The notes below the pieces were generated by a model. The model made no database searches. It saw nothing but the letters and a program-made list of their open reading frames with translations, and was not told where the DNA came from. From positions 1 to 64,000 of IMG/VR virus record IMGVR_UViG_3300047157_000063: a DNA stretch of 64,000 nucleotides, one strand, 5' to 3'. Numbering within the stretch: the first letter of the stretch is position 1; each line of letters begins with the position of its first letter. A program made the translations under genes and the position numbers. Source of the stretch: a virus. Shown here piece by piece: positions 23,194-56,234 of the stretch.

Positions 23194-23197
23194 ATAT

Positions 23198-23665
23198 TTA
23201 TTTTTTAATTAATTTAGATGTATTACCTTTGTTTTTATACTTAGCAATACTTATGTTTAGTTTTGGTTTTTCTATTTTAGCATTTGGTCTATATAAATGC
23301 CTGTTGTTAGCCATTATAGCTAAACCAGAGCTTATAGAAGCATCATGCTTTGTTCTTTTGTTTATATCAAACTTAGCCCAGTCATTTAGTAATTCATTAA
23401 AATAACAATTACCAAAACTACCATCTTGTTCATACCTACGTGGATCTTGTATATACATTTCAATTGCAGCTGCATGAGCTTGTTTTATATCTTCACTTGA
23501 GTTTGGTATACCACCTACTTCTTTTTCTGCTACAGATAATTTGTTCCATATTTTATCAGGTCTATTCATACTAAAACCTCTATAACCACGTCTTCGTAAA
23601 TAATACAATAGACGAGGTTTATTGTTCTCTGCAAGTATAGGCATCCCGTAAAATACTAATGCCAT
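23198..23665 (-). CDS. Terminase large subunit, C-terminal nuclease part
   Basis: This frame carries the end of TerL (ILAENNKPRLLYYLRRRGYRGFSMNRPD and a basic tail). Just upstream, in the frame before the break at about 23715, the sequence reads AFGCDSYDISGT, the first acidic nuclease motif of the RNase-H-like domain that cuts concatemeric DNA. The two pieces join as one domain with one-base corrections in homopolymer runs at 23670-23730. The gene ends 5 bases before the portal start. The apparent Met start at 23665 is internal. Confidence 0.65.
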   Translation of the reverse strand: MALVFYGMPILAENNKPRLLYYLRRRGYRGFSMNRPDKIWNKLSVAEKEVGGIPNSSEDIKQAHAAAIEMYIQDPRRYEQDGSFGNCYFNELLNDWAKFDINKRTKHDASISSGLAIMANNRHLYRPNAKIEKPKLNISIAKYKNKGNTSKLIKK

Positions 23666-23914
23666 TAGAACGTCTTCAAAGAATATCTCTGCGTTTGTGG
23701 TCTTGCTAAGTACTCTAAAAAAATGTATTAGCTGGCGCGTCTTCCATACTAAACTTAGTTAATCCGTGTAAAGCGCCTTTAGAACCTACACCATCTACTG
23801 TTCCTGATATATCGTAGCTATCACAACCAAAAGCACCCATGTGTTCATTACCAGGATATTTAACACCATTTTTAATTACAACTTTGTTTTGTATGTTTGT
23901 TGGTGGTACCCAGC

Positions 23915-25009
23915 TTACTTTAAATCTACCTTTGGATCTGGATAAAATATTACTGTTGAATCTTTAACACCGTTAACCCATTGAAAATTACCTTTAGTAA
24001 TACCTAGTGTTCTAGACATTTCTTCGTTGTAATCTATTTGCTCGTATATTTTAACTAAGTTAAATATACTGTTTTTAGTTTCATCTCTAAACGCATGCTC
24101 AGTAGTTCTTGGAAACTGTCTGTAAAATTCGTTTAAAGCATCTTGATCGTTTTTTAAACCGTCAGCTTCATTTTGCCAACTGTCTATAACACCTATATCT
24201 ATTAATTCCCCATGTGGATCGAAGACTTCATGATCCGGAGTATTGAAGACTGGGCTTCCGTGCTCATCAATAAATCCTTCGTAGTTCCACTCCATTGGGA
24301 TAAAAAGAGAATATAAGCCAGACGCTGTCTGTCCATTTCTGTTTCGCTTAGTAACGTCTGATGCTCCATATAATTTTTTAAAGTTTTCTCCACCTTTGTC
24401 TAATGCGTTTGATGTTGAGCCCATCATACATTTACCTATAATCCTACTACCTAATCGTAAACATGTTTTTGTAACTCTCCAGTTGTTTAATATATTATCG
24501 GGTCTTTCCCACTTACCACTTTCATCGTGTACTAAAAGCTTTAGTTTTTCACCGTCATAGCTATTGTCACCTGTATTCTTCCAGTCTATAGTTGTATCTA
24601 ATCCTTCTAAATCTTCTAGCTTTTCGTTTGTTGTAATCTTCTTTCTAGTGAACTTAGAAGCTGGAACTCTATATGCAAGCTCGGATTTTGGCCTATCCAT
24701 ACCGTCTTGAATAGGACTAAAAAAGAAAGGATAATTAATCGATATAGGTACAACTTTGTCAGTAAACATTTTCTTAGCATCAGCTCCTGTTTTAGATAAT
24801 ATACCAAACCTTGCATCACTTGATATTGTAGCTTGGTTAACTGTTTCAGCTGATGACATAAAAGAAAAACCAGATCGTCTGTTTTTAAGGTAACACATAC
24901 CATAACATCTTTTATCTGCTTTGCAAGCTTCCCAGAATATATAGAATAATCTATTAGCTTCTCTAAAGTCTGGTGCACCTACGTCAATTTTACTCCACTG
25001 CAAGTACAT
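23915..25009 (-). CDS. Terminase large subunit, ATPase part
   Basis: This is the motor that pumps DNA into the prohead through the portal. The piece contains MCYLKNRRSGFSFMSSAE, a divergent Walker A in terminase style (LKNRRSGFS), then a long ATPase core with KLLVHDESGKWE, which fits Walker B plus the catalytic Glu. It ends with FYPDPKVDLK, where one A missing from an A run (23925-23935) hides the continuation GRFKVSWVPPTN. The full gene runs from ATG 25406 to 23198 (about 735 residues) and is followed directly by portal. The family call is from motifs and order. Confidence 0.75.
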   Translation of the reverse strand: MYLQWSKIDVGAPDFREANRLFYIFWEACKADKRCYGMCYLKNRRSGFSFMSSAETVNQATISSDARFGILSKTGADAKKMFTDKVVPISINYPFFFSPIQDGMDRPKSELAYRVPASKFTRKKITTNEKLEDLEGLDTTIDWKNTGDNSYDGEKLKLLVHDESGKWERPDNILNNWRVTKTCLRLGSRIIGKCMMGSTSNALDKGGENFKKLYGASDVTKRNRNGQTASGLYSLFIPMEWNYEGFIDEHGSPVFNTPDHEVFDPHGELIDIGVIDSWQNEADGLKNDQDALNEFYRQFPRTTEHAFRDETKNSIFNLVKIYEQIDYNEEMSRTLGITKGNFQWVNGVKDSTVIFYPDPKVDLK

Positions 25010-25406
25010 ATAATGTGTACCTGTTATATATGTTGCTTTACCGTTGTTGTTAAACCAAAAACCTTCATCTCTACGTTTAAACTCTTCGTCTATATAATCA
25101 AACCAGTCAGCTTTCTTTTCTTCAGGATATGCTCTCCAGTCAAATATGTTTTTAAGCCTACCTAATTCTTTGGGTATTCAAACTGTTTCCACTTTTTTTC
25201 TTTGTTGCTATACACACTACGCTCTTTTGGCAATGCTATCTGAAAGTTTTGTATCTCGTATATCTCACCTATCTCACCAGTCTTAGATATAACTACAAGA
25301 TCGTGTTCTTTGTTATAACCATACTTCCACTTTTTACCTTTGTTAAGTCTGCTTATAGTAGTTTTTTTATAGGTTCTACTATTTTAAGTAAATTCTGTTC
25401 GTACAT
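25010..25406 (-). CDS. Terminase large subunit, N-terminal part (frameshifted)
   Basis: The ATG at 25406 overlaps the stop of the upstream 90-residue gene in a TAATG. From there the frame changes near 25365 (an A run) and 25165, but the combined reading flows into the ATPase piece: KWKYGYNKEHDLVVISKTGE, SVYSNKEKKWKQFEYPKELGRLKN, then YIDEEFKRRDEGFWFNNN. The N-terminal segment would hold the adenine-binding region ahead of Walker A. Confidence 0.55.
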
Positions 25407-25678
25407 TACTTAGATCTACCTTCTGCAAAACCTTTAAATACTTTAACTTCGGTTTTAGTTTCTTTACCTTCTAGTATGTTCTCTTCTTCTTGTATTCTAT
25501 TCAATATTTCAAACGCATCAAATATAGCTAGTTTCTTTGTTGCTGCAGCATTTTTTAATCTGTCAGCTGATATATCATCGTCAGAATCTACAATAGCTTC
25601 TTTAGCAACTTTAATCAGTTCTTCAACTGCTTTATGCCCAGCTTGGATTATATTCTTCTTCGTCTCCTTGATATTCAT
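25406..25678 (-). CDS. Small protein before TerL, candidate terminase small subunit
   Basis: A 90-residue helical protein (HKAVEELIKVAKEAIVD, RLKNAAATKKLAIFDAFEIL, then an acidic stretch and a basic end). It is translationally coupled to TerL by TAATG and overlaps the upstream gene by four bases. The size, helical build and position suit a small terminase subunit or another packaging cofactor. I see no clear helix-turn-helix, so the call is inference from context. Confidence 0.45.
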   Translation of the reverse strand: MNIKETKKNIIQAGHKAVEELIKVAKEAIVDSDDDISADRLKNAAATKKLAIFDAFEILNRIQEEENILEGKETKTEVKVFKGFAEGRSK

Positions 25679-26211
25679 ATTTGATTGTAATAAAATTTGA
25701 TAAGTACTCTATATAGTTTTTGACCGTCTATAATAAACTCATATTCTGAGCTTGGCCTAAAACCTATTAAATCACCTTTGTTAACTGTACCATCAGTATG
25801 TTTAACAATACCAACTAAAGGCTTTTCTTTATCTACACTTATTTGTCTGTAGATTTTACTGGTGCTACAAAACAATATCCTTTTTGCGCTTGCCATTCGG
25901 TATTTTTGTATAAGAATATTTGATCTGGTTGTACTAAGGTATGTTTCTTCATCAATATAACTTCTACTATTCTTTTCTATACCGTGCTGGTTGTGCCATC
26001 TTCTAAATACATTGTGATGTACTATAACCTTATCACCAACTTTTATATCTGTATCACCAACTGTAGGTATTGCTTTTACTATAGCTTCTCTACTAACATA
26101 CTGGTGGTTGAATATTTCTGTATTAACTATAAGTTCTTTACCTCCTATATTTTTTGTATTGTTGTATCTTGATTTTACTGGTGTTACAACAAAGTTGTAA
26201 ACCGACTTCAT
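25675..26211 (-). CDS. Double GroES-like barrel protein (centre out of frame)
   Basis: The first half reads YNFVVTPVKSRYNNTKNIGG, ELIVNTEIFN, SREAIVKAIP and DIKVGDKVIVHHN. This is the strand order and VGDxV motif of the GroES barrel, with the Gly-Gly-rich segment where GroES has its mobile loop. The second half (VDKEKPLVGIVKHTDG, VNKGDLIGFRPSSEYEF) repeats the pattern. The ORF is open for 178 residues, but residues about 100-122 make poor sense in this frame. In the next frame the same DNA encodes NTEWQAQKGYCFVAPVKSTD, a fitting first strand of the second barrel. Two compensating indels near 25905 and 25842 are therefore likely. It is coupled to both neighbours by start/stop overlaps. The GroES relationship is inference. 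Confidence 0.5.
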   Translation of the reverse strand: MKSVYNFVVTPVKSRYNNTKNIGGKELIVNTEIFNHQYVSREAIVKAIPTVGDTDIKVGDKVIVHHNVFRRWHNQHGIEKNSRSYIDEETYLSTTRSNILIQKYRMASAKRILFCSTSKIYRQISVDKEKPLVGIVKHTDGTVNKGDLIGFRPSSEYEFIIDGQKLYRVLIKFYYNQI

Positions 26212-45500: not shown

Positions 45501-45754
45501 TCTACTAAAACAACGTTACCAATTGATATAACATGATACATATTACCGTTCCAAGTTATACCATGCCCATTGTTTTTGTCATAATAGATAATATCACCAT
45601 CTTGTATGCACTCTACTTTATGTCCAGCACTGATGACTCTAGCTTTTAGATACCTATTGTCACTATCTAACTTTTCTGTTATTTCTAAACCTGCTATTTT
45701 TTGCGGTTTTTCTTTAATTTTTTCTATTACGATGTTATAATTAATTGCTTTCAT
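45497..45754 (-). CDS. groES: GroES-like co-chaperonin
   Basis: An 85-residue single-barrel protein: [20 protein letters not shown] opens with the first strand and a loop in which IAGLEI takes the place of the GroES mobile-loop GGIVL. Then come YLKARVISAGHKV, CIQDGDIIYYDKNNGHGITW and HVISIGNVVLVE. The QDGD turn and final strand match GroES order. It is a little shorter than bacterial GroES (about 95) and overlaps the end of groEL by 14 bases, so the phage makes both partners together. It probably caps the phage GroEL, host GroEL or both. Confidence 0.7.
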   Translation of the reverse strand: MKAINYNIVIEKIKEKPQKIAGLEITEKLDSDNRYLKARVISAGHKVECIQDGDIIYYDKNNGHGITWNGNMYHVISIGNVVLVE

Positions 45755-47312
45755 TGACTCTCACGTTATTAATTACACAATCTGCAGAAATTATTGTAGA
45801 AACCACACTAACTGCGTTCTTTAGTGCCGTTTTTGTTACCAAAACCGGGTCAATTATACCGGTTTCTACCATATTTACGTATTTTCCATTCGTTACATCT
45901 ATTCCGTAACCTTTGGTTATACCTGTTTTCTTAGTATTCTCGAGTCCAGCGTTGTCTAATATAGTATTAAATGGTGATAATATAGATTTTAACAATATTT
46001 CTTCACCTACATTGCTAGGTTCGATGTTTTTTGATGCGTCAAACAACGCAACGCCTCCGCCAGGTACAATTCCTTCTTGTAAAGCTGCTTTTACTGCATA
46101 TATAGAGTCTTCAACTCTGTCTTTCTTCTCTTTTAGCTCTACTTTTGAGTCAGCACCAACCTTTATAACGCCTACAGAGCCAGAAAGCATAGCTAATCTT
46201 TCCTGTAGTTTCTTTTTAAAGTAAGGTTTTGTCTCTTTTTTAATGCTTTTCTTTACGTTTTTTATCCTTTCCTGTAAATCCTCGTTTACAAAACCAGTTG
46301 TAAGGACTGTAGTTCTGCTATCTGTCACAGATTTGACTACTTCACCCAAACAATCTGGCTGGATCAGATCTAAATCGTCTCCAAGCTCTTCATTTACTAC
46401 TTTAGCACCAGTTAAAAAGGCTAAATCATCAATAGCATCTTTCTTACTAGTTGCAAAACCAGGTGTGTCAATAATATTTACCTTAATATTACCTTTAACC
46501 TTGTTCATTAATAGTGCTGATTTGACCTGCTCGTCTACTTCAGCTACAATAAGTAGTGATCTTTTATTTTTAAGTACATGTTCTAATATACTTTGTATCT
46601 TTCTTATGTTAGGTATAGGTGAAGATACGATCAAAACTAGCGGGTTTTCTAAAACACATCGCTGTTTGTCTTTGTCAGTTATAAAATATTGTGATGTTAT
46701 ACCTGAATCTATTTGAACTCCATCTACTATTTCTGCATAAGTTCTGTCATCTTCTGATTCTTCCATCAAAACTACACCATCTTTACCTACTTTATCATAA
46801 GCATCAGCAATTATATCGCCTAACTCCTTGTCATTGTTACAGCTTATTGATGAAACACTCTGTAACATATTGCCAGATACTGGCGTGGCGTGTTCTGAAA
46901 GGTATTTATTAACCTTTTCACTTGCTGATTTAATTCCATTTTTAATATCTCTTGTAGAATGATCTTTATATTCTGGATCATTAACTAGTTTTAAAAGTGA
47001 TTGAGCAAGGACGGTAGCTGTAGTAGTACCGTCACCTGCTTCTTTCACCGTATTGCTGGCCGCTTCCTTTATTAAAGTTGCACCTATGTTTTCAACCGGA
47101 TCGTGTAAGACTACAGATTCTGCTACTGTAACACCGTCTTTTGTGATAATCGGTTTACCCATTGCATCTTCGTAAATAACACATTTACCAGACGCGCCTA
47201 ATGTAGACTTAACAGCTTTCGCTAATTTATCTACACCAGCAATGATTTGACTCTTTGCGTCGTTACCAAAATGTAATTCTTTTACATAACGACTAGGATT
47301 ATTGTATTCCAT
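45741..47312 (-). CDS. groEL: Phage chaperonin GroEL
   Basis: A 523-residue chaperonin. ATP-site motifs are present: TLGASG (37-42, TLGPKG in most GroELs), TKDG (57-60), [11 protein letters not shown] (93-103), [20 protein letters not shown] and GGGVAL (about 390-420) and GIIDP near residue 485. The apical domain is strongly diverged, and the C-terminal Gly-Gly-Met tail of bacterial GroEL is missing. So the ring is probably active as an ATPase but tuned to phage proteins. The gene is followed in overlap by a groES-like gene, an order opposite to the bacterial groES-groEL operon. It is likely needed for folding capsid or fibre proteins; that role is inference. Confidence 0.9.
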
Positions 47313-47964: not shown

Positions 47965-48134
47965 CTGTTTTAAATTTAATAGAAAGTGTGACACAAGCTC
48001 CTTACTAGATATACTTATATAGGCTACTGTCACATATTTCAAAAGTTGTTAAATATTTAGAGATACTGTGTTGCTCCCTCTCTTTCCCGCCACCGTCGCC
48101 AGAGGAAAACCGCTTTCTTTTGCCCAGCCCCACC

Positions 48135-48159
48135 TTATTATCCACGTTTCATCGTATAT
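48135..48159 (-). promoter_or_regulatory. Candidate leftward phage promoter
   Basis: Read on the minus strand it is ATATACGAT, six bases (GAAACG), TGGATAATAA. It has the same spacing and the same TACGA and TGGATAATA cores as the six rightward copies. It faces the late strand, about 190 bases ahead of its first gene. Confidence 0.55.
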
Positions 48160-48354
48160 ACTCCGTGTATAGCATCTCCTCCTCCCATCATATTCACCTG
48201 TGCTAATTCGTTCACACCATCACATATCTATGCTGTCATCTGATCATCACCATGTATAGCATTTCGCCTCGCCCTCCCATCCATGCCATATTGTCATGAC
48301 TATCTGACACTGACATAATGACATGACACATTGACATTCAACTAATTACATAGC

Positions 48355-48379
48355 AAATACGAAGTCATATGGATAATAT
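48355..48379 (+). promoter_or_regulatory. Candidate phage promoter P1
   Basis: AAATACGAA, six bases, TGGATAATAT. This is the first copy in the control region and faces the early strand. It lies about 130 bases ahead of P2, with only a 14-codon ORF between. Confidence 0.6.
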
Positions 48380-48483
48380 ATATGTAACTAATAACAAAGA
48401 TAATAGTTAGACAATGAGAGACAGTGCGGAATACTACACAGCTAATATAACTCACTAAACAAAGTATATACTTTACACAATGT

Positions 48484-48508
48484 AAATACGAACTCGAATG
48501 GATAATAA
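48484..48508 (+). promoter_or_regulatory. Candidate phage promoter P2
   Basis: AAATACGAA, six bases, TGGATAATAA, 26 bases ahead of the ATG at 48535. The intervening leader is A/T-only. Confidence 0.65.
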
Positions 48509-48534
48509 TAATGTAACAAATAAATAAATATAAT

Positions 48535-48762
48535 ATGAGTAATTTAATTTCAAAAAGATTTGTCATCAGACAGTCGCTAGTAGGTAAAAATCAAAACATC
48601 ACTGTTAACTTTAAAAATGGTAAAACAGTAACTTACAATCACGATAAAGTGTTTGAAGTAATGAAAAGTAAACTAACTACTATGCCATGTTTCATAAAGT
48701 ACAAATCTTACACTTCTTCAACAAGTGTTCCAGTAATCGCTAGAGAAGTAGTTGAACAATAG
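48535..48762 (+). CDS. First early protein (75 aa), unknown
   Basis: A basic 75-residue protein with alternating strand pattern (MSNLISKRFVIRQSLVGKNQ, NITVNFKNGKTVTYNHDKVF) and a Ser/Thr-rich end. It is the first rightward gene after two promoter copies, so it is probably made very early; such proteins often take over host functions. No family is recognised. Confidence 0.5.
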   Translation: MSNLISKRFVIRQSLVGKNQNITVNFKNGKTVTYNHDKVFEVMKSKLTTMPCFIKYKSYTSSTSVPVIAREVVEQ

Positions 48763-48787
48763 TAAACTACTAGCAACTTTAAGTTCC

Positions 48788-48864
48788 ACTTGTTTCTATA
48801 AGTATAAAAATGCGAACAAGTAATTGAGTAAATGGTTTCTGTGAGTTCGATTCTCACCTACTCA
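48788..48864 (+). ncRNA. tRNA-like RNA element: hairpin plus T-arm/acceptor minihelix
   Basis: Bases 48841-48857 form a perfect tRNA T-arm (GTGAG, loop TTCGATT, CTCAC). One base later TACTCA (48859-48864) pairs with TGAGTA (48825-48830), making an acceptor-like stem. D and anticodon arms are absent: only ten bases lie between. Upstream, ACTTGTT (48788-48794) pairs with AACAAGT (48815-48821). No 5' acceptor partner is seen at normal tRNA distance. It could be a tRNA relic or a tRNA-mimicking RNA. Confidence 0.45.
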
Positions 48865-48886
48865 TCTAACAATTAAAATAATTAAA

Positions 48887-49021
48887 ATGAAAAGAAAGTT
48901 TCAACACTTTGCAATCAATGCAATATTGGTTTCGCTTGCAACACTAGCATTCACAGGAATAATAACTATTATATTCCACCTAGCATTCTCTAACCCAACT
49001 ATAACTTTTGGCGGATGGTAA
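48887..49021 (+). CDS. Small membrane protein (44 aa)
   Basis: MKRKFQHFAINAILVSLATL is followed by AFTGIITIIFHLAF and ends FGGW: one strongly hydrophobic segment behind a basic N-terminus, so inner-membrane insertion is likely. It overlaps the next ORF by seven bases. The function is unknown. Confidence 0.5.
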   Translation: MKRKFQHFAINAILVSLATLAFTGIITIIFHLAFSNPTITFGGW

Positions 49022-49125
49022 ACAAGAATAAAAATAACAAAACAGATATAATAATAAACTTTTTGTTTGTAGCACTAGTATTTTATATCTTATACATATC
49101 ACTGTGGATATTCTGTCCATGTTAA
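49015..49125 (+). CDS. Small membrane protein (36 aa)
   Basis: MVNKNKNNKTD precedes one membrane segment (IIINFLFVALVFYILYISLW) and a short Cys-containing end. It overlaps the preceding small membrane protein gene; the pair may act together. Confidence 0.45.
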   Translation: MVNKNKNNKTDIIINFLFVALVFYILYISLWIFCPC

Positions 49126-49135
49126 AATAAAGATT

Positions 49136-49249
49136 ATGCAAGAATTATTAGATAAAATAGCACAAGAAACATATGGTGAATTCGGCTTCGCTACGTGTAC
49201 TGACGAGCAACAACTAGAAATAATAACTAACAATTTAAAAATTAAATAA
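49136..49249 (+). CDS. Small early protein (37 aa)
   Basis: MQELLDKIAQETYGEFGFAT is an acidic helix, followed by TCTDEQQLEIITNN. It is part of a packed run of six tiny ORFs with one to ten bases between them or overlaps. The function is unknown. Confidence 0.4.
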   Translation: MQELLDKIAQETYGEFGFATCTDEQQLEIITNNLKIK

Positions 49250-49250
49250 T

Positions 49251-49388
49251 ATGCAGTGGATTTTAAAGTGCGAAAATGGTAAGCAAATAGATATGACTTA
49301 CTATATAGGTCAACAAATGGAAAGAAAAATAACAAGACAAGATGTTCTTGAAAGAATTGAGTTTTATAAATCAACTAATAAAAAATAA
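49251..49388 (+). CDS. Small early protein (45 aa)
   Basis: MQWILKCENGKQIDMTYYIG, then RQDVLERIEFYKSTN: a short strand-strand-helix protein. It begins one base after the preceding stop. No function is known to me. Confidence 0.4.
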   Translation: MQWILKCENGKQIDMTYYIGQQMERKITRQDVLERIEFYKSTNKK

Positions 49389-49393
49389 TAATT

Positions 49394-49513
49394 ATGGCAC
49401 ATAGAAATACTTACTTACTCAAAATATCATTTAGAGTATACGGAAAACATTGGAATTTACTAACTTATGACGAACGCGCTCATGTAACAGACATATACTA
49501 TGACTTCTACTAG
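49394..49513 (+). CDS. Small early protein (39 aa)
   Basis: MAHRNTYLLKISFRVYGKHW, then AHVTDIYYDFY, rich in Tyr. Its last codons overlap the next start by 14 bases. The function is unknown. Confidence 0.4.
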   Translation: MAHRNTYLLKISFRVYGKHWNLLTYDERAHVTDIYYDFY

Positions 49514-49640
49514 AAAACACTCACACAAAGAATTGTGGTCATTCAGTGACGAGCACGTAATAGATAATATGATTTACTCTAATGAGTTAGGTAAATATAT
49601 AACTGTAGAAGAATATACTGACTTACATTATACAAACTAA
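49500..49640 (+). CDS. Small early protein (46 aa)
   Basis: MTSTRKHSHKELWSFSDEHV, then YITVEEYTDLHYTN. Its stop codon overlaps the first bases of promoter copy P3. The function is unknown. Confidence 0.4.
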   Translation: MTSTRKHSHKELWSFSDEHVIDNMIYSNELGKYITVEEYTDLHYTN

Positions 49641-49663
49641 ATACGAAAAGAGTTGGATAATAA
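49639..49663 (+). promoter_or_regulatory. Candidate phage promoter P3
   Basis: AAATACGAA, six bases, TGGATAATAA, preceded by ACAAACT. The ATG of the next gene is nine bases downstream, leaving almost no leader. Confidence 0.65.
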
Positions 49664-49672
49664 TATAAAATA

Positions 49673-49861
49673 ATGAATATGAATAAATTTAAGTTTACTA
49701 ACTACAATGCACTTGGCAAACCTCAAAATGTTATACTAACAACAGATGAAGGTAATGAAGTGCTACAATGGTGGCCTCACACTATGTACTATGATAAAGG
49801 AGACAAAAAATATGTCTCATTTAAGAAGTTTTACAAAATAAATAATGAAATCTATGTCTAA
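49673..49861 (+). CDS. Small early protein (62 aa)
   Basis: MNMNKFKFTNYNALGKPQNV, then VLQWWPHTMYYDKGDKKYV: a compact beta-type protein with several aromatics. It follows promoter P3 directly and overlaps the next ORF by 17 bases. The function is unknown. Confidence 0.5.
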   Translation: MNMNKFKFTNYNALGKPQNVILTTDEGNEVLQWWPHTMYYDKGDKKYVSFKKFYKINNEIYV

Positions 49862-50102
49862 TAAAAAATACTTTGATGACTTAACATTAGAAGAAATGTT
49901 TAAAGCGCACGACTGGACTTATATGTACTCAGATGATAATAGATATTATACATCAGGCAGAAGACAGAAAGAATTAATTGATAATAAAATAAAAGAATCA
50001 GGTGGTTGGTCACAAGATATTCTTAAAATACACAACAAGCATTGCCCAAAACCAATGCAGATGAGTGAAGAATGGCTAGAAAACTACTTACTAAAACAAT
50101 AA
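49845..50102 (+). CDS. Early protein (85 aa), unknown
   Basis: MKSMSNKKYFDDLTLEEMFK, HDWTYMYSDDNRYYTSGRRQ, then helical KELIDNKIKESGGWSQDILK. It is rich in Tyr/Asp/Lys. A second possible start, four codons in (MSNKKYF), would reduce the overlap with the preceding gene. No family is recognised. Confidence 0.5.
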   Translation: MKSMSNKKYFDDLTLEEMFKAHDWTYMYSDDNRYYTSGRRQKELIDNKIKESGGWSQDILKIHNKHCPKPMQMSEEWLENYLLKQ

Positions 50103-50107
50103 ATAAT

Positions 50108-50494
50108 ATGACATGATTATCCTTACACGTGGAGACAAGAACAGACAAATGCTTTGAAGACTCGTTTCGCAAGAGCTCTACTAGTCGAGCACAATATAAA
50201 AGAAGTTACCACACAAAGACAAGCTATAAACGGCACAAGTGAGTTCGAGTTTCCTGTATCTGCTAGAAATTACTCATGCAAATGGTGCTAAGTTCATTGC
50301 TTCACCTGATAGAAGACTAAGATTAGCTTGTTTCAAGTCGGGTTATGTAAGAAATCAAAACTCTTGCTCATCTAACTATCAACTTAAATAAACACTTACA
50401 AGCAAGAATGTTAGGTACCACGTTCTTCGACAATGACAAAGGTGGCTTGTATACTAGCACAAAAGAATATATTTCTACACGCAAGACTAATTAA
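50108..50494 (+). pseudogene. Early gene broken by indels (about 129 aa)
   Basis: Reading over three frames gives HDYPYTWRQEQTNALKTRFA, LLVEHNIKEVTTQRQAINGT, then LLEITHANGAKFIASPDRRL and CSSNYQL. It continues NKHLQARMLGTTFFDNDKGG to STRKTN, stop at 50494. Joins near 50270 and 50387 (an A run) each need one base. It is probably intact in the real phage. The function is unknown. Confidence 0.45.
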
Positions 50495-50623
50495 TTACAG
50501 TGAGCTTGACAAGATTAAACTACATGTTAGAACTTTTACTTAAAGAAACTATTTAAACAGATAATGGAAAATAAATTATAAGAAATTGTACTTAGATCAC
50601 CACGATTGTACATTAGAATCTGA

Positions 50624-50839
50624 ATGGACACAGGTGGTTATGATTTTGAAATGAGTACTGAGTATGCACCGCTGATAGTTATGATGTATACTTATGCAGA
50701 TACGCAGGTGAATCAACTAGATATATGCGAGAACATATACTACTATTCTCATGATTTAGAAGATATACTCATGGAAAAAATAGAAGAATGCGACAAAGTA
50801 TATTGTGACGAGGGTATTGAAGATGAACTTACACATTGA
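50624..50839 (+). CDS. Acidic early protein (71 aa)
   Basis: MDTGGYDFEMSTEYAPLIVM, MYTYADTQVNQLDICENIYY, and an acidic helix (EDILMEKIEECDKV). Upstream, 50564-50623 encodes YKKLYLDHHDCTLESEW in another frame. The true protein could thus be longer by about 20 residues with an indel in between. The function is unknown. Confidence 0.45.
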   Translation: MDTGGYDFEMSTEYAPLIVMMYTYADTQVNQLDICENIYYYSHDLEDILMEKIEECDKVYCDEGIEDELTH

Positions 50840-50927
50840 GTGGGAACAAATATGTGAAGAAAATGGTTTAATCGAGTGGGATGATGACAACGAAGAATAT
50901 CAAGTAGTCGGTGAAGATGAAGAATAA
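50823..50927 (+). CDS. Very acidic small protein (34 aa)
   Basis: MNLHIEWEQICEENGLIEWD, then DDNEEYQVVGEDEE. Nearly half its residues are Asp or Glu, so DNA mimicry is conceivable but not shown. It overlaps the preceding gene by 17 bases. Confidence 0.4.
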   Translation: MNLHIEWEQICEENGLIEWDDDNEEYQVVGEDEE

Positions 50928-50935
50928 CACAAACC

Positions 50936-50960
50936 AAATACGAATTAATTTGGATAATAT
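50936..50960 (+). promoter_or_regulatory. Candidate phage promoter P4
   Basis: AAATACGAA, six bases, TGGATAATAT, preceded by ACAAACC. The next ATG (50967) is six bases away. If GATAAT acts as the -10 box, the message would start at or next to the ATG. Confidence 0.7.
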
Positions 50961-50966
50961 AATTGT

Positions 50967-51188
50967 ATGACAACAAAATGTAAATGTAAAAATATAATAC
51001 CTCCGCAGCGGTTGGCACTAGGCTATACCTCTTGCGTCGAATGCAGTACCGTACAAGCTTACGGTTGTATTAACATCACCTACCACAAAACCGGTAATAC
51101 TATCCAGATTATGCCGAAGGATCAGGCGAAACGTATACGCAAGCTAACCGCTAGACGAGGCTATGGAACAATGTTAAGAAATATATAA
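50967..51188 (+). CDS. Small zinc-ribbon-like protein (73 aa)
   Basis: MTTKCKCKNIIPPQRLALGY, then CVECSTVQAYGCINITYHKT and MPKDQAKRIRKLTARRGYGT. Two Cys pairs (CxC and CxxC) 20 residues apart suggest a zinc site of the DksA/TraR-like or short-ribbon kind. I recognise the arrangement from small conserved marine-phage proteins. It follows promoter P4 directly and may be translated from a leaderless message. Nucleic-acid or RNA-polymerase contact is possible but unproven. Confidence 0.55.
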   Translation: MTTKCKCKNIIPPQRLALGYTSCVECSTVQAYGCINITYHKTGNTIQIMPKDQAKRIRKLTARRGYGTMLRNI

Positions 51189-51190
51189 CT

Positions 51191-51403
51191 ATGAGTGATT
51201 CAGTAAAAGCATGGCACGAAATGCAAGAAGAAAATAAAATATCTATATCCGTAGATAAAGATTTAATACTAGTAAACAAACTACTAGCATTGAGTAATGA
51301 GCAAAAATTACTAGACATAGATCAAGCTTTAAAAGAGTATGAAGGTAATGTTATAGATAAATGGCAAGTTATTAATAGAATAGAAGAAATAATGTCACGT
51401 TGA
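51191..51403 (+). CDS. Early helical protein (70 aa)
   Basis: MSDSVKAWHEMQEENKISIS, LVNKLLALSNEQKLLDIDQA, then a helical end. It starts two bases after the zinc-ribbon-like gene, so the two share a message. The function is unknown. Confidence 0.5.
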   Translation: MSDSVKAWHEMQEENKISISVDKDLILVNKLLALSNEQKLLDIDQALKEYEGNVIDKWQVINRIEEIMSR

Positions 51404-51524
51404 GGCGTGATAATGGTGGCGGCATACTGGTCACGTTAGCGGTAAATCCTACTATGGTACGCAAAACAGAAAGAGCGGATAAATGATAATACTAGTTAGC
51501 TACCAGTCCGCAACTGCTACCTAT
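51404..51524 (+). ncRNA. Non-coding stretch with partial copy of tRNA-like 5' half
   Basis: No credible gene is seen. GGCGTGATAATGG and TGGTCACGTTAGC near 51404-51440 resemble GGGCGTGAAATGG and TGGTCACCTAAC in the element at 51525, in the same order with an extra block in between. This suggests a duplicated, decayed copy. Confidence 0.4.
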
Positions 51525-51645
51525 GGGCGTGAAATGGTATGGTCACCTAACATTAAATCGAGGTCTTGGCTTCAAGCTTGTATCAGTTGTACAAAGCCAC
51601 TCGTAGTGACAGTGATAAACGCAGGTTCGATTCCTGCCACGTCCA
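51525..51645 (+). ncRNA. tRNA-like RNA, oversized (121 nt)
   Basis: GGGCGTG (51525-51531) pairs with CACGTCC (51638-51644; one G-U) as a 7-bp acceptor stem with discriminator A. GCAGG, loop TTCGATT, CCTGC (51621-51637) is a perfect T-arm. The 89 bases between acceptor and T-arm are about 35-40 too many for a normal tRNA. They hold a hairpin with TTGTA/TACAA arms and a 7-base loop, and CACT/AGTG. No clear anticodon loop with U33 is seen. It may be a tRNA with an insertion or a tRNA mimic. Confidence 0.5.
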
Positions 51646-51656
51646 CAATACAAACC

Positions 51657-51681
51657 AAATACGAATGTAGTTGGATAATAT
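51657..51681 (+). promoter_or_regulatory. Candidate phage promoter P5
   Basis: AAATACGAA, six bases, TGGATAATAT, preceded by ACAAACC. It lies 12 bases after the tRNA-like element and 15 bases ahead of ATG 51697. Confidence 0.7.
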
Positions 51682-51696
51682 AATTAAATAATAAAT

Positions 51697-51933
51697 ATGA
51701 CAAAAATCAAGACCGTCTACGACAGATTACTGCCCGACGTTAAAACAAGTTTGCAGGCTAGTGCTAGAAAGTATGACTCTGCTAAAAGACTTAAGTATAC
51801 TCTTATGTCTAAAATGATGTGGAATGAATTAACTATTGACGAGATGAAAGACTTGTTTACTTACGGTGATATAACAAGCTATAAACTAGAATGCTGGAGC
51901 TTTATGTATGGTGATAATATACTTACGAAATGA
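51697..51933 (+). CDS. Early protein (78 aa), unknown
   Basis: MTKIKTVYDRLLPDVKTSLQ, KYDSAKRLKYTLMSKMMWNE, LTIDEMKDLFTYGDI: a helical, basic protein. It is the first gene after promoter P5. Its stop overlaps the next ATG in ATGA. The function is unknown. Confidence 0.5.
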   Translation: MTKIKTVYDRLLPDVKTSLQASARKYDSAKRLKYTLMSKMMWNELTIDEMKDLFTYGDITSYKLECWSFMYGDNILTK

Positions 51934-52196
51934 GCAAGCAAAAATTACCCGAATGGTTTAGAGGACAATTGTATACTACGGGAGATACAGTAACAAATCC
52001 TTTTAGTGGAGAAAGTTATAAACTAACAGCAAAAGAATTAAGCATGTATGATTTTATAATGGGTTCTCAAATGGTAATTGAAATGAAAGGTGGACCTTTC
52101 AGTAGAGCTTCGTTTGAAGTACAAAAAGATATGGCTAAGGCATTAGATTGGTTCAGACATAATAATGCTAAAGCTTATATGGTATTACTTGATTAA
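51930..52196 (+). CDS. Early protein (88 aa), unknown
   Basis: MSKQKLPEWFRGQLYTTGDT, NPFSGESYKLTAKELSMYDF, then two helices (VQKDMAKALDWFRHNNAKAY). It is coupled to the gene before it. The NPFSGExYxLTxxExSMYDF pattern recurs, from memory, in other marine phages without a known function. It ends 10 bases before the tRNA-Met gene. Confidence 0.5.
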   Translation: MSKQKLPEWFRGQLYTTGDTVTNPFSGESYKLTAKELSMYDFIMGSQMVIEMKGGPFSRASFEVQKDMAKALDWFRHNNAKAYMVLLD

Positions 52197-52206
52197 TGCT
52201 ATACAC

Positions 52207-52280
52207 GGCGGGATAGAGCAGCTGGTCAGCTCGCAAGGCTCATAACCTTGAGGTCGATGGTTCGAATCCATCTCCCGCAA
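52207..52280 (+). tRNA. tRNA-Met (CAT anticodon)
   Basis: A full cloverleaf is visible: acceptor GGCGGGA/TCCCGCA with positions 2-7 paired and a G-A mismatch at the first pair. The D-arm is GAGC/GCTC, the anticodon arm CAAGG, loop CTCATAA, CCTTG, the variable loop AGGTC, and the T-arm GATGG, loop TTCGAAT, CCATC. CCA is not encoded. The open first pair is an initiator trait, but the anticodon stem lacks three G-C pairs, so initiator versus elongator is undecided. Confidence 0.9.
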
Positions 52281-52297
52281 CTAAAAATAATAATAAT

Positions 52298-52639
52298 ATG
52301 ACTAACGTAGAATTTGACGTACTAACTGCTAAATTGGCCGAGGTAGCTAGAGAAACGATGAATAAAAAAGGCCCAGAATATACTAATCAAAACGCTGATG
52401 TTTTAAATAACTTTAAATCAACAGGTAAAAGATTAAATGTATCTCCCATAAAAGTATGGAGTATATTCATGGATAAGCAGATACAAAGTGTAATGGCTCA
52501 TGTCAATAATCCGCATCTTGACAAAGCTGAGAGCATAGAATCTAGATTTGCAGACATAATTAACTACTGCTTCTTAGGTCATGCTTTATTTACAGAAAGA
52601 GATAGCGGTAAAATTAAAGAAATATTTAACAATGAGTAA
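52298..52639 (+). CDS. Nucleotide-modification-associated domain 1 (Nmad1)-like protein
   Basis: A 113-residue helical protein: KKGPEYTNQNADVLNNFKST, then LNVSPIKVWSIFMDKQIQSV and IESRFADIINYCFLGHALFT. The GxEYT...DVLxNFK...SPxxVW...K...ES..R..DIINY pattern is that of the Nmad1/MazG-related family found in phages with modified DNA. The role in those phages is not well established; it may act on modified or unmodified dNTPs. A TS/dCMP hydroxymethylase-family enzyme is encoded at 60.1 kb. The gene overlaps the next one by eight bases. Confidence 0.6.
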   Translation: MTNVEFDVLTAKLAEVARETMNKKGPEYTNQNADVLNNFKSTGKRLNVSPIKVWSIFMDKQIQSVMAHVNNPHLDKAESIESRFADIINYCFLGHALFTERDSGKIKEIFNNE

Positions 52640-52802
52640 TATAACACAAGAAGATTTTAATGCATACGTAGATGTGCAAGAGTCAGGAGTAACAAACATG
52701 TTTAACGTAAGCGTAGTATCAGACTATTCAGGTCTAAGAAAAGATCAGATTATAGAAATTATGACTAACTACTCTGATTTAAAAGAGAAATATGGCGACT
52801 AG
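52632..52802 (+). CDS. Early protein (56 aa), unknown
   Basis: I place the start at ATG 52632 (MSNITQEDFNAYVDVQESGV) rather than an earlier in-frame ATG lying inside the preceding gene. The rest is helical (LRKDQIIEIMTNYSDLKEKY). It overlaps both neighbours, so all three are co-translated. The function is unknown. Confidence 0.55.
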   Translation: MSNITQEDFNAYVDVQESGVTNMFNVSVVSDYSGLRKDQIIEIMTNYSDLKEKYGD

Positions 52803-53253
52803 AAACTTAACAATGGTAGTAGATAGGAAACACGCAGAGGACCATGAACTTGGTTTTGCTGCTCCTCCTAGTTTTTTCAGTGACAAAAGCTATGTAAATA
52901 TGTATTTACACCATGATGGTTATCCTCAATGGCAAGGTATACAGATCGCTAATTGGTTACACGCTAACCCAACTAGTGACGGTAGCCGTTTAGCTGCTAA
53001 ATTAGTTCATGATATGTATTATGACAGTTGCTATTTATACCAAGATGTAAACAGAATAGATCATCAGTATACTTATATTATATTCTCAGGTAAACAAGAC
53101 AGGTGGGTTAGTTGTTATGACAACTATTCAAGCGAAACTGTATTTGTACTAAAACCAGAGAAGATTATATCTAGGTATATGCAAGATATGGAATACACTG
53201 ATTTTGCAAATGGTGAAACTAGATACAAACTAAATACGAACGTGATTGGATAA
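52792..53253 (+). CDS. Conserved early protein (153 aa), unknown
   Basis: It starts MATRNLTMVVDRKHAEDHEL and contains YVNMYLHHDGYPQWQGIQIA and YTYIIFSGKQDRWVSCYDNY. I recognise the HHDGYPxxQG segment from conserved phage proteins of unknown role. The last codons encode promoter motif P6, so the 3' end does double duty. No catalytic motif is seen. Confidence 0.5.
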   Translation: MATRNLTMVVDRKHAEDHELGFAAPPSFFSDKSYVNMYLHHDGYPQWQGIQIANWLHANPTSDGSRLAAKLVHDMYYDSCYLYQDVNRIDHQYTYIIFSGKQDRWVSCYDNYSSETVFVLKPEKIISRYMQDMEYTDFANGETRYKLNTNVIG

Positions 53254-53256
53254 TAT
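53232..53256 (+). promoter_or_regulatory. Candidate phage promoter P6, inside a gene end
   Basis: AAATACGAA, six bases, TGGATAATAT, preceded by ACAAACT. It overlaps the last codons of the preceding gene and lies four bases ahead of ATG 53261, so a normal start site would give a leaderless message. Confidence 0.7.
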
Positions 53257-53260
53257 ATAT

Positions 53261-53551
53261 ATGACAGACGACGAATTAAACAAACTTGCATCTATGATAG
53301 CCGACAAGCTTATCACTCATCGTAATGATAAAGATATAGCTTGGCATGACAAAAGCCCTATAACTATAGAGCACTTGCTAGAAGATATGCCTTTAAGTTT
53401 CAAAGAAACTCCTGAAGAACATATCATAGGTGAAATTGCACGTCTTACTACTCTTCTAATGATGTATCAAGAGCAAGAAGAATACAGGAAAATGCAGATA
53501 ATACAAAATAAAATTAACAGATTACAAAACAAATTAGATAATGATAATTAA
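53261..53551 (+). CDS. Early helical protein (96 aa), unknown
   Basis: I choose ATG 53261 (MTDDELNKLASMIADKLITH). An in-frame ATG at 53246 lies within the promoter box and is unlikely. The protein has an Asp/Glu-rich N-terminal helix, a middle with SPITIEHLLEDMPLSFKETP, and a coiled-coil end (EEYRKMQIIQNKINRLQNKL). It overlaps the ligase start by 11 bases. The function is unknown. Confidence 0.5.
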   Translation: MTDDELNKLASMIADKLITHRNDKDIAWHDKSPITIEHLLEDMPLSFKETPEEHIIGEIARLTTLLMMYQEQEEYRKMQIIQNKINRLQNKLDNDN

Positions 53552-54380
53552 CAAACCAATGTTAGCACACAAGTATGACGACAAGCGAGTAGACTGGTCT
53601 CAACCTGTGTATATACAACCTAAACTTGACGGCGTCCGCTGCTTGTTTACTAAAGACGGTGCATACTCTCGTACCGGTAAACAATTTAAAAACGTAGCTC
53701 ATATAGAGCTCGCATTACTATCGTTCTTCAAGCATAGCCCAGACGTTGTACTTGACGGCGAATTATACAATCATAAACTAAAACATGATTTCGAAAAAAT
53801 TATATCATTAGTTCGTAAGCAAAAGCCTACTGCTGATGACAGACTAGATGCTCAACACCTCGTGCAATTTCACGTGTACGACTACATTTCAACACCTGTA
53901 TACGATAGTTACAAAAGACGTATGCACAATCTAGTAACAACAGATCTATATTGTCCAAGCATACAATACGTACCAGCTAAACTTGTTGACAGTTATAATT
54001 ATGCTAGAGATATACACGCTGACTTCCTTGATCAAGGTTACGAAGGCTCTATTATCAGGCTAGATGGTCTATACAAACACGGTAGGTCTTACGACTTAAT
54101 GAAATTCAAAGACTTCAGCGATACTGAAGCAACCATCATAGGTTATGAATTAGGTAAGGGTAAGCGACAAGGCACGCTCGGAAAGTTCCTGATGCAAGAT
54201 GACGAAGGTATAAAGTTCGGTTGTCCGCCGGGCAAAGGTTATACCTACAAGGATCTCGCAAATATGTTACTGAAAGTTAATGACTATATAGGTCAGCGTG
54301 CTACCTTTACTTATTTTCAACGAACTAAAGCAGGTTCATACAGACACCCGCTATTTAAATGTATACGTAATTATGAGTAA
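53541..54380 (+). CDS. ATP-dependent DNA ligase
   Basis: A 279-residue ligase that would seal nicks in replicating phage DNA. Motif I is KLDGVR (28-33), where Lys28 takes the AMP. Motif III follows as VVLDGELYNH, IIIa as FHVYDYI, IV as YEGSIIRLDG and V as DLMKFKDF. A C-terminal OB-type domain follows (EATIIGYELGKGKRQGTLG to FTYFQRTKAGSYRHPLFK). The small two-domain layout is that of T7-type ligases (T7: 359 residues), here shorter. It is the first replication gene after promoter P6. Confidence 0.9.
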   Translation: MIINKPMLAHKYDDKRVDWSQPVYIQPKLDGVRCLFTKDGAYSRTGKQFKNVAHIELALLSFFKHSPDVVLDGELYNHKLKHDFEKIISLVRKQKPTADDRLDAQHLVQFHVYDYISTPVYDSYKRRMHNLVTTDLYCPSIQYVPAKLVDSYNYARDIHADFLDQGYEGSIIRLDGLYKHGRSYDLMKFKDFSDTEATIIGYELGKGKRQGTLGKFLMQDDEGIKFGCPPGKGYTYKDLANMLLKVNDYIGQRATFTYFQRTKAGSYRHPLFKCIRNYE

Positions 54381-54412
54381 GACAATATGGAAACTATATA
54401 ATGATAATAACA

Positions 54413-55483
54413 ATGAATATATTTTATTTAGCTAAATGCCCATACAAAGCGGCGGAGTTACAATATAATAAACATGTGGTAAAGATGATACTTGAGTCAG
54501 CTCAAATGTTATGTACTGCTCACCATCATTATGCTGAGAAGCATGAGATCAACGCTGACTACATACCATACAAAAAGGCTCATTACAATCACCCATCAAC
54601 TATATGGTGTAGACAAAACAAAAACCATTACAGATGGTTATATAACCACATGAAAGCATTAGGCAGAGAATATACTGCTAGGTATGGTAAAGAACATTTA
54701 TCAATAACTAAATGTAAATCTAAACTTAGTTTATATCCTCATGATATACCTGAAGGAGCGTTTGAGCAACCTCCTCAGTGTATGCCTGATGAATACAAAG
54801 ACAAATGTAGTATACAAGCTTACTGGAATTATTACATTATAAATAGTAACAGGCTTATGTCACAAGAAAGAAGATTGAAATGGCTAAATGATAGACGCAT
54901 CGTTTATAGGAGAGATCCTGATACTGATACACCTACTATTGAAACCAAACAATATAAATACTACGCTGATGGTACATACCAATGTTATCACTTGTTTAAT
55001 AGCAAGGCTAAGATAACCACGTATAAATCATTAAAGTGGCATATGCTTGTATTATATTACCTGAATGATGATATACCACATGGTAATCCATTATTAATGG
55101 AACACTTGTTTAGGTTTATAGCTAATAAGGAAAATGGATTTGTCACCTTCTTTATTAAAAGTAGAATACTAGATGAAATGATAGATAACGTTATGACAAT
55201 AGGTGGTGAACCACCAGCAAATAAAATGCGTAAAGTAGTATTTAAACCTTATAATTGTTTAACTTTAAGTGAAAAGTTAAGCATTGTAGGTAAATTAATA
55301 GGTAGATCTTCACATGTAGATGAAGAAATAATCTACCAAACAATGTTAGATTTAAATGAATTTGGAAAAAAGATTACAATAAGTAGAATAGCTGGTTTGC
55401 TCGACTGTTCTACTAGAACAATACATAGAAACATGAGCAAGCAATTAAAAAACGAAAAAAAAATATTAAATGAAGAAATATAA
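54413..55483 (+). CDS. Two-module phage protein with C-terminal helix-turn-helix
   Basis: The start is taken at 54413 (MNIFYLAKCPYKAAELQYNK), as the motif MNIFYL begins this family; an ATG lies four codons earlier. Residues 1-150 (HVVKMILESAQMLCTAHHHY, HPSTIWCRQNKNHYRWLYNH) match a conserved phage family of unconfirmed activity. Residues about 270-356 hold LTLSEKLSIVGKLIGRSSHV and ITISRIAGLLDCSTRTIHRN, a clear helix-turn-helix. Such modules are usually separate, so this may be a fusion. The stop overlaps the sigma factor start by 14 bases, pointing to a joint regulatory role. Confidence 0.55.
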   Translation: MNIFYLAKCPYKAAELQYNKHVVKMILESAQMLCTAHHHYAEKHEINADYIPYKKAHYNHPSTIWCRQNKNHYRWLYNHMKALGREYTARYGKEHLSITKCKSKLSLYPHDIPEGAFEQPPQCMPDEYKDKCSIQAYWNYYIINSNRLMSQERRLKWLNDRRIVYRRDPDTDTPTIETKQYKYYADGTYQCYHLFNSKAKITTYKSLKWHMLVLYYLNDDIPHGNPLLMEHLFRFIANKENGFVTFFIKSRILDEMIDNVMTIGGEPPANKMRKVVFKPYNCLTLSEKLSIVGKLIGRSSHVDEEIIYQTMLDLNEFGKKITISRIAGLLDCSTRTIHRNMSKQLKNEKKILNEEI

Positions 55484-56234
55484 TATACCCGGCTATATAA
55501 TCGACAAAGAAGATTTAAAGCAAGCATTGCTTAGGTTACCTGAACACGGTGAGAACTATCAATTATATACTCGTGAAGAATTAATAATTAAGTTCTGTCC
55601 ATTAGCAGAGAATATAGCTAGAAAATTTTCAACAAGCCAACAAGCTTCTGGTGTTATGACTATAAGAGATTTAATACAAGAAGGTAGAGCTGGCTTAACG
55701 AAAGCTGTTGATAGAATTGATTGGGAACTATTTAATGAATCTGAAGATAGAGAAAAAACAATGAAAAGTTTTTTATCAAAGAGAATTAGAGGTGCAATTA
55801 GAAGGTCAATTGATATTAACAGGGGTGACATACGTATACCTGAGCACAAGCTAAACGAAATACGTAGAAACTTTGGTAAAGATAAAAAGATGGTTGCTAT
55901 GTTTTTTAACTCTATATTTTTAAGCATAGATGAAAAACCAAACAACGATGAAAATATGGTTTACCAAATACCAGATAAGTCAGAACCTTATAATATGAAC
56001 TTACTAAATATTTATTTAACTGGTTTGTTAAAGAAGCATTTAGACGAAAGAGAATATCATGTGTTAAGACTTAGTTATGGGTTAGACTGCGATAAGCATT
56101 CAGCTAAAGAAATTGCTGCTGAATTAAAAATCGAAGGATCGAGCTCTTATGTAAGAGTCTCTCAATTAAAAAAGCAAGCGGTAGACAAGTTAATAGAAAA
56201 TGTAGACCACTCGCAAGTGCTTGATTACCTGTAA
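55470..56234 (+). CDS. Phage RNA polymerase sigma factor
   Basis: A 254-residue sigma-70-family protein. Region 2 is FCPLAENIARKFS, then DLIQEGRAGLTKAVDRID and FLSKRIRGAIRRSIDINRG (residues about 42-115). Region 4 is LDEREYHVLRLSYGLDCDKH, AKEIAAELKI and YVRVSQLKKQAVDKLI (residues about 195-245), giving the -35-binding helix-turn-helix. It likely redirects host RNA polymerase to phage promoters, perhaps late ones on the other strand. No anti-sigma partner is seen. It overlaps the HTH fusion gene. Confidence 0.85.
   Translation: MKKYNIPGYIIDKEDLKQALLRLPEHGENYQLYTREELIIKFCPLAENIARKFSTSQQASGVMTIRDLIQEGRAGLTKAVDRIDWELFNESEDREKTMKSFLSKRIRGAIRRSIDINRGDIRIPEHKLNEIRRNFGKDKKMVAMFFNSIFLSIDEKPNNDENMVYQIPDKSEPYNMNLLNIYLTGLLKKHLDEREYHVLRLSYGLDCDKHSAKEIAAELKIEGSSSYVRVSQLKKQAVDKLIENVDHSQVLDYL

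Follow-up and report, generated by a model that had tools for sequence, protein, structure and literature searches.

A candidate phage-specific promoter class and its putative sigma factor in an uncultured relative of flavobacterial phages

Which factor reads a motif that recurs six times, always in the same orientation, among the presumed early genes of an uncultured virus? The DNA in question, called the window below, comprises the first 64,000 nucleotides (nt) of the 71,675-base IMG/VR record IMGVR_UViG_3300047157_000063. An earlier note on this stretch had described a strict two-part, promoter-like motif and had suggested that a phage factor may read it. This is probably correct. That note named no factor; an obvious candidate, a putative sigma factor, is encoded in the window downstream of the last copy. 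We consider it likely that the six copies, P1 to P6, form a phage-specific promoter class which is read by this sigma-70-family protein (55470-56234, plus strand) on the host core RNA polymerase.

Position and architecture of the motif

The pattern AAATACGAA-N6-TGGATAATAW has six exact matches on the plus strand of the window, at 48355, 48484, 49639, 50936, 51657 and 53232, in agreement with the positions and the six-base gap given in the earlier note. Four of them (49639, 50936, 51657 and 53232) also have the left flank ACAAACY, as noted before. Dinucleotide shuffles of the window gave no match. A search of the full genome found the copies confined to the same six sites, with no seventh exact copy in the 71,675 bases, and a reversed control pattern did not match anywhere in the record.

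An exact scan of IMG/VR for the core returned at least 118 stretches. Distinct sites (151) were aligned, anchored on the fixed core and numbered from the downstream purine as +1. Conservation extends from -37 to about +2 and thus beyond the bases that were queried: TTACAAACT is conserved directly upstream and a T-purine step downstream. The elements follow each other in the order TACAAACT (-37 to -30), AAATACGAA (-29 to -21), six free bases (-20 to -15), TG (-14/-13), GATAAT (-12 to -7) and a purine at +1; the full form reads T(-37)ACAAACT-AAATACGAA-N6-TG-GATAAT(-7)AW.., purine +1. GATAAT is kept in nearly all sites, and in a set of 276 sites the base at -12 is always G and the base at +1 is a purine in 274. 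The AAATACGA block (-29 to -22) is almost invariant across sites, and the TG preceding GATAAT is fixed in the window genome but variable across the family. The motif is therefore promoter-like, as had been proposed, but longer than the two boxes first recognized. The objection that the boxes are too close for a -35/-10 pair falls, because AAATACGAA is an extra element and the -35-like CAAACT lies farther upstream, at the normal spacing of 17 base pairs (bp) from GATAAT.

All six copies have the exact core and a profile match, and each is given here from -37 to the predicted +1. P2 (48476-48513) precedes a gene at 48535-48762 with a leader of 22 nt, P3 (49631-49668) a gene at 49673-49861 (5 nt), P4 (50928-50965) a gene at 50967-51188 (2 nt) and P5 (51649-51686) a gene at 51697-51933 (11 nt). 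At P6 (53224-53261) the predicted +1 coincides with the A of the ATG, and the leaderless gene that begins there is the first of an operon that continues with a ligase, a helix-turn-helix (HTH) protein and the sigma factor. P1 (48347-48384, profile score 37.6) stands in tandem with P2 with no long gene between them; as the interval holds only an ATG-TAA and a 14-codon frame, the previous count of six early genes becomes five, with one further copy in tandem upstream. Likewise, the next ATG lies 4-26 bases past the motif for P2 to P6 but not for P1. The near-leaderless starts that had been proposed for P4 and P6 hold with the predicted +1. In relatives, the motif precedes orthologues of the P2, P4, P5 and P6 genes at 21, 42, 36 and 42 sites, respectively; 20 of the 42 P6-gene sites are leaderless, and the others have leaders of, for example, 6, 9 or 15 nt.

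We infer that the six copies are promoters and that transcription would begin at the purine 7 nt after GATAAT, an assignment based on the purine and on the sigma-type distance. In 309 sites, an open ATG coincides exactly with +1 in 73 cases; shifted by one base, the count is 0 on the upstream and 6 on the downstream side, and two bases downstream it is 13. About a quarter of the sites would thus give a leaderless mRNA with the A of the ATG as +1, and the remainder a short A-rich leader. For one and the same gene, the leader length varies between genomes. Leaderless messages make up 5.5% of the mRNAs of F. psychrophilum (PMC9723704), and in F. johnsoniae 87% of leaders are longer than 10 nt (PMC6847099).

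A tentative leftward copy, P0, is located in the divergent region (48130-48167, minus strand; core 48135-48159, predicted +1 at 48130). It has two mismatches to the core, and its profile score of 13.6 is at noise level, the best match in ten random genomes being 15.0. Six relatives (G010, G005, G018, G022, G023 and G035) have a single opposite-strand copy beside the first rightward site. Given these copies and the weak one in the window, the same factor may start both arms.

Association with a sigma-70-family protein

The candidate sigma gene lies 2.2 kb downstream of P6 and encodes 254 amino acids (aa). Its product matches phrog_351 (E 1.5e-20), and it exceeds the cut-offs of the sigma-70 superfamily model TIGR02937 in NCBIfam (53.3 versus 42.9 bits) and of the region 4 HTH family PF04545, Sigma70_r4 (27.8 versus 24.1 bits). 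PF04542, which covers the core-binding and -10-recognizing region 2, scores below its cut-off (20.2 versus 24 bits, E 5e-4), and residues 33-133 align to region 2 of FliA and SigA. The protein is below all subfamily cut-offs shown, e.g. 42.8 versus 189.6 bits for FliA/WhiG (TIGR02479). Its nearest solved relative is FliA/sigma28. The AlphaFold model (predicted local distance difference test 77, predicted template modeling (TM) score 0.49) was matched by Foldseek to SigA, SigmaS and FliA chains with a probability of 1.00 and low global TM scores, the latter because domain placement is uncertain in the model. Judged from this model, the protein has a sigma fold.

The promoter is present in more than 100 IMG/VR contigs from uncultured relatives, and its distribution follows that of the sigma gene. 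When contigs were picked solely by the DNA motif, 34 of 40 were found to encode a homologue of the 254-aa protein; the remaining six are all partial records of 49.7-53.8 kb. A search for relatives of the protein yielded 56 loci with 62-92% identity to it. When these were scanned by consensus score, 140 sites were found, all on the sigma strand, with none in shuffled sequence. An enlarged set of 86 sigma loci has 320 sites on the sigma strand and 0 on the opposite one. The motif is present in 36 of 38 records that carry the sigma gene (17 in the strict form and 19 of the other 21 in a relaxed form), the two exceptions being 57-kb partial records. Three of 17 contigs picked by a capsid-region protein have the sigma gene, each of them together with the motif; the remaining 14 are fragments of 30-56 kb, of which only G075 has clustered motif-like sites. 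Two relatives have a motif copy directly before the sigma gene itself, with no leader, which fits direct self-activation. The protein has no match in cultured phage records, and the motif is absent from phi38:1 (whole genome) and from the stretches of Calle and elemoA that were scanned. One record, G045 (the record of locus L020), has two intact sigma homologues (64909-65658 and 3695-4444), both about 55% identical to the one in the window.

The promoters also change in a concerted fashion. Most genomes have G at -13 and others A, C or T, and copies inside one genome tend to match: the base is G in six of six copies in the window, A in nine of nine in G017, and C in G018 and G072. Within-genome agreement was assessed by a shuffle test on 55 genomes with 276 sites. 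The z values are 17.9 at -13, 8.4 at -31, 7.1 at -37 and 6.4 at both -30 and -14, whereas they are below 1.5 at the spacer positions -20, -19, -18 and -15 and at -5 to -1; within the spacer, -17 (3.6) and -16 (1.9) are mild exceptions. Such agreement is the outcome predicted if the promoters co-evolve with one trans-acting reader. The concerted positions are those that a sigma factor would be expected to touch, namely with region 4 (-37 to -30) and with regions 2.4/3.0 (-14/-13). In a phylogeny-corrected regression, sigma residue 127, which adjoins the equivalent of sigma70 H455, takes the top rank for A and for G at -13. This is only suggestive of a residue-level link between the -13 base and this particular sigma, and it does not hold up after correction for 534 tests.

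Candidate readers of the motif

According to the mechanism proposed here, the phage sigma would redirect host RNA polymerase to the early and replication genes, its own operon included. Domain 4 would contact the -35-like TACAAACT (-37 to -30), domains 2/3 would contact the extended -10 (GATAATA with a lineage-specific base at -13), and the AAATACGA block would be an added determinant. The regulon would be the rightward early/replication arm. As this includes the P6 operon with the ligase (53541-54380, plus strand; phrog_114, E 1.6e-78), the HTH protein (54401-55483, plus strand; phrog_624, E 3e-44) and the sigma gene, the arrangement would give positive feedback. Phage-encoded sigma factors for temporal gene classes are known from SPO1 (gp28 and gp33/34) and T4 (gp55). 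As in those phages, a sigma-family protein would redirect the host core polymerase to a phage-specific class of promoters; here, however, the promoter sequence and the sigma subfamily are different, many sites are leaderless, and the class comprises the genes that open the early arm together with the operon of the sigma itself. There is also a resemblance to sigma28/FliA, whose promoter TAAAGTTT-n11-GCCGATAA has GATAA at the same place (PMC2859248). G stands at -12 in both, FliA gives the best match among solved structures, and at the position equivalent to sigma70 Q437 there is a glycine, which is invariant in the phage proteins (G108). However, the -35 element is TACAAACT rather than TAAAGTTT, the AAATACGA block is extra, the -13 base is usually G or A with C in a few lineages only, and the score of the protein falls far short of the FliA/WhiG cut-off.

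Comparison across genomes strongly supports both the promoter identity of the motif and its reading by this sigma, but several points weigh against the latter. The covariation of sigma residues with motif bases, suggestive for residues 127 and 120, was not significant after correction for phylogeny and for the number of tests. Co-occurrence partly reflects shared ancestry, since these genomes have most of the right arm in common; the HTH/phrog_624 protein, for instance, is found in 83 of the other 85 sigma loci. The invariant block at -29 to -22 is not readily explained by a sigma alone. Finally, the operon of the sigma seems to need the sigma, which makes the first round of its synthesis hard to place.

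The invariant block, which is not a usual sigma contact, would be accounted for by an arrangement like that of the T4 middle promoters, which combine a MotA box near -30 with a -10 element. A phage activator would bind -37 to -21, and a phage or host sigma would read only the -10 GATAATA. The HTH protein, a candidate co-activator, adjoins the sigma and is nearly as widespread; its weak C-terminal HTH matches, however, are below the Pfam cut-offs, and no MotA-like protein was identified among the proteins scanned. T4 indeed also has a long conserved box that lies near -30 and keeps a fixed distance to the -10, but the box sequence is different, and conservation here reaches -37, with CAAACT at normal -35 spacing. 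The positions at -37 to -30 also change together with -14/-13, as expected for one sigma spanning both. We regard a separate activator as unlikely. A host sigma, be it the principal one or one of the ECF (extracytoplasmic function) or sigma54 type, would solve the first-round problem but is very unlikely in our view. The known flavobacterial classes (TAnnTTTG, TAnnTTGY, a sigma54 class and an ECF CGT box; PMC9723704) differ from the motif. Bacteroidota principal-sigma promoters have TTTG and TAnnTTTG (PMC6847099, PMC9723704), and the TAnnTTTG -7 element is missing from the motif consensus, in line with the earlier statement that this is not a promoter of that type. They share with the phage promoters the likely host phylum and A-rich leaders lacking a Shine-Dalgarno sequence, whereas leaderless starts account for 73 of 309 sites here, against the 5.5% of mRNAs in F. 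psychrophilum. From 47.6 kb to P6, the only rightward TAnnTTTG is in a coding region, at 52543. TTG-N18-24-TAnnTTTG, tried as a host-type promoter for the early arm, was rejected: it has 18 matches on both strands of the whole record, with no rightward one 5' of P1. Moreover, a host sigma would not cause the -13 base to switch by phage lineage unless hosts differ likewise, and only 4 of 396 Flavobacteriales genomes match a relaxed pattern with one mismatch allowed. Two of the four are isolated one-mismatch hits and one is a set of contigs of phage DNA. The fourth, a perfect copy before a TerB-domain gene, is a point for a host sigma.

This single perfect copy (L317:324-354; CALSQD010000002.1) is on a 1.39-Mb bacterial contig of the Flavobacteriales metagenome-assembled genome AC_MB403, without a sigma gene. 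It may be a captured promoter, one which infection would switch on. The phage DNA is on contigs C16 and C67 of the Flavobacteriales bin G455 (loci L321-L324), where several motif copies precede homologues of early genes of the window. The promoter variant found there has AACACGA at -28 to -22 and often C at -13. This phage DNA is a possible host link.

The first round would likewise be explained by an RNA polymerase of the phage or its virion, such as those of crAss-like phages or N4. Some crAss-like phages carry a virion polymerase, and the virion proteins of the window are distantly crAss-related. However, the geometry fits a sigma-type promoter, no phage RNA polymerase was found among the proteins scanned, which cover the large proteins and part of all open reading frames (ORFs), and ORFs above 250 aa have no convincing catalytic DxDxD; we consider such a reader highly improbable. 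The T7 promoter is 23 bp long, from -17 to +6. The earlier note had remarked that AATACGA is shared with it while the rest differs. The difference holds, and since conservation here extends from -37 to about +2, the likeness looks accidental. A translation signal, an operator or a replication or packaging element might also be repeated, strand-oriented and close to start codons, but the fixed -35/-10 geometry, the nearly constant purine with ATG exactly at +1 in 73 sites, and the variable leaders of the same gene leave hardly any room for a non-promoter function.

Reading by the phage sigma can be extended to a more speculative picture, which we put forward only tentatively. A widespread clade of uncultured flavophages would use a private sigma and a three-part promoter (the -35, an obligatory element at -29 to -22 and a -10 of the G-12 type) as its first transcription class. 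The start would be set on the start codon, so that early messages lack a leader although such mRNA is rare in the phylum, and lineages would drift apart in specificity as all copies change in concert with the sigma. If this were true, action at time zero would require that the sigma, or a polymerase already loaded with it, is delivered together with the DNA.

Genome context and implications

The record is related to the Cellulophaga phages phi38:1/Calle (Pervagoviridae) and the Flavobacterium elemo phages. A virion protein of 1698 aa matches both groups and holds the crAss_MUZ_C domain (muzzle C-terminal domain) above cut-off. Other virion proteins and GroEL mostly have 30-40% identity to those of phi38:1 and the elemo phages, and the terminase pieces 36-64%. 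The homologous crAss-like muzzle and virion genes indicate that the phage is related to the Pervagoviridae/Elemovirus group. Its host is probably flavobacterial, as its relatives are flavobacterial phages. A nucleotide search of the whole region against cultured phages gave, among the matches listed, only tRNA-Met. From about 48 kb the virion genes are oriented leftward, and the early/replication genes extend rightward to about 65 kb, the latter including the ligase, the HTH protein, the sigma, ERF, a PD-(D/E)XK-like protein, a primase-helicase and thymidylate synthase. The phage-encoded GroEL is at 45741-47312 (minus strand, E 5e-137), as in phi38:1 and the elemo phages. Terminase and portal homologues (21323-26211, minus strand) are found only in pieces, with no ORF of 60 aa in 21323-23198; frameshift errors in the assembly are likely.

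A short RNA resembling transfer-messenger RNA (tmRNA) abuts the upstream edge of P5 (51525-51648, plus strand; Rfam score 33.7 versus a gathering score of 47). It has both ends of the tRNA-like domain, and its total length of 77-124 nt leaves no space for the usual tag domain and pseudoknots. A similar RNA is found shortly 5' of a motif copy at loci L133, L137, L145 and L162, with comparable ones at L148, L149 and L294. The divergent control region (47985-48037 and 48282-48340) has spaced GTGTGACA...TGTCACA arms and an array of TGACA/TGTCA repeats, which are conserved in G001, G071, L298 and others and are perhaps an operator or origin. For the leftward genes, a search for late promoters by 8-mer enrichment gave only AT-rich words on that strand. 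By eye, AAGCGTGTAATAATA was spotted shortly 5' of leftward genes (window 47964 and 26981, minus strand; G001 38219 and 17874). It is a possible leftward promoter that is not general; the window and G001 each have just two copies.

We found no description in the literature of the motif, or of a sigma factor in this phage group, in a search that mostly did not extend to subscription journals, so that an earlier description is possible. The promoter would provide a readable code for an uncultured and apparently common group of Bacteroidota phages, from which transcription units become predictable from sequence. The sharp class with ATG at +1 makes leaderless translation in Bacteroidota directly testable, and the lineages in which all copies switched the -13 base together are a natural experiment in promoter co-evolution. 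The sigma and its promoters are, furthermore, a candidate orthogonal pair for a phylum in which genetic tools are poor.

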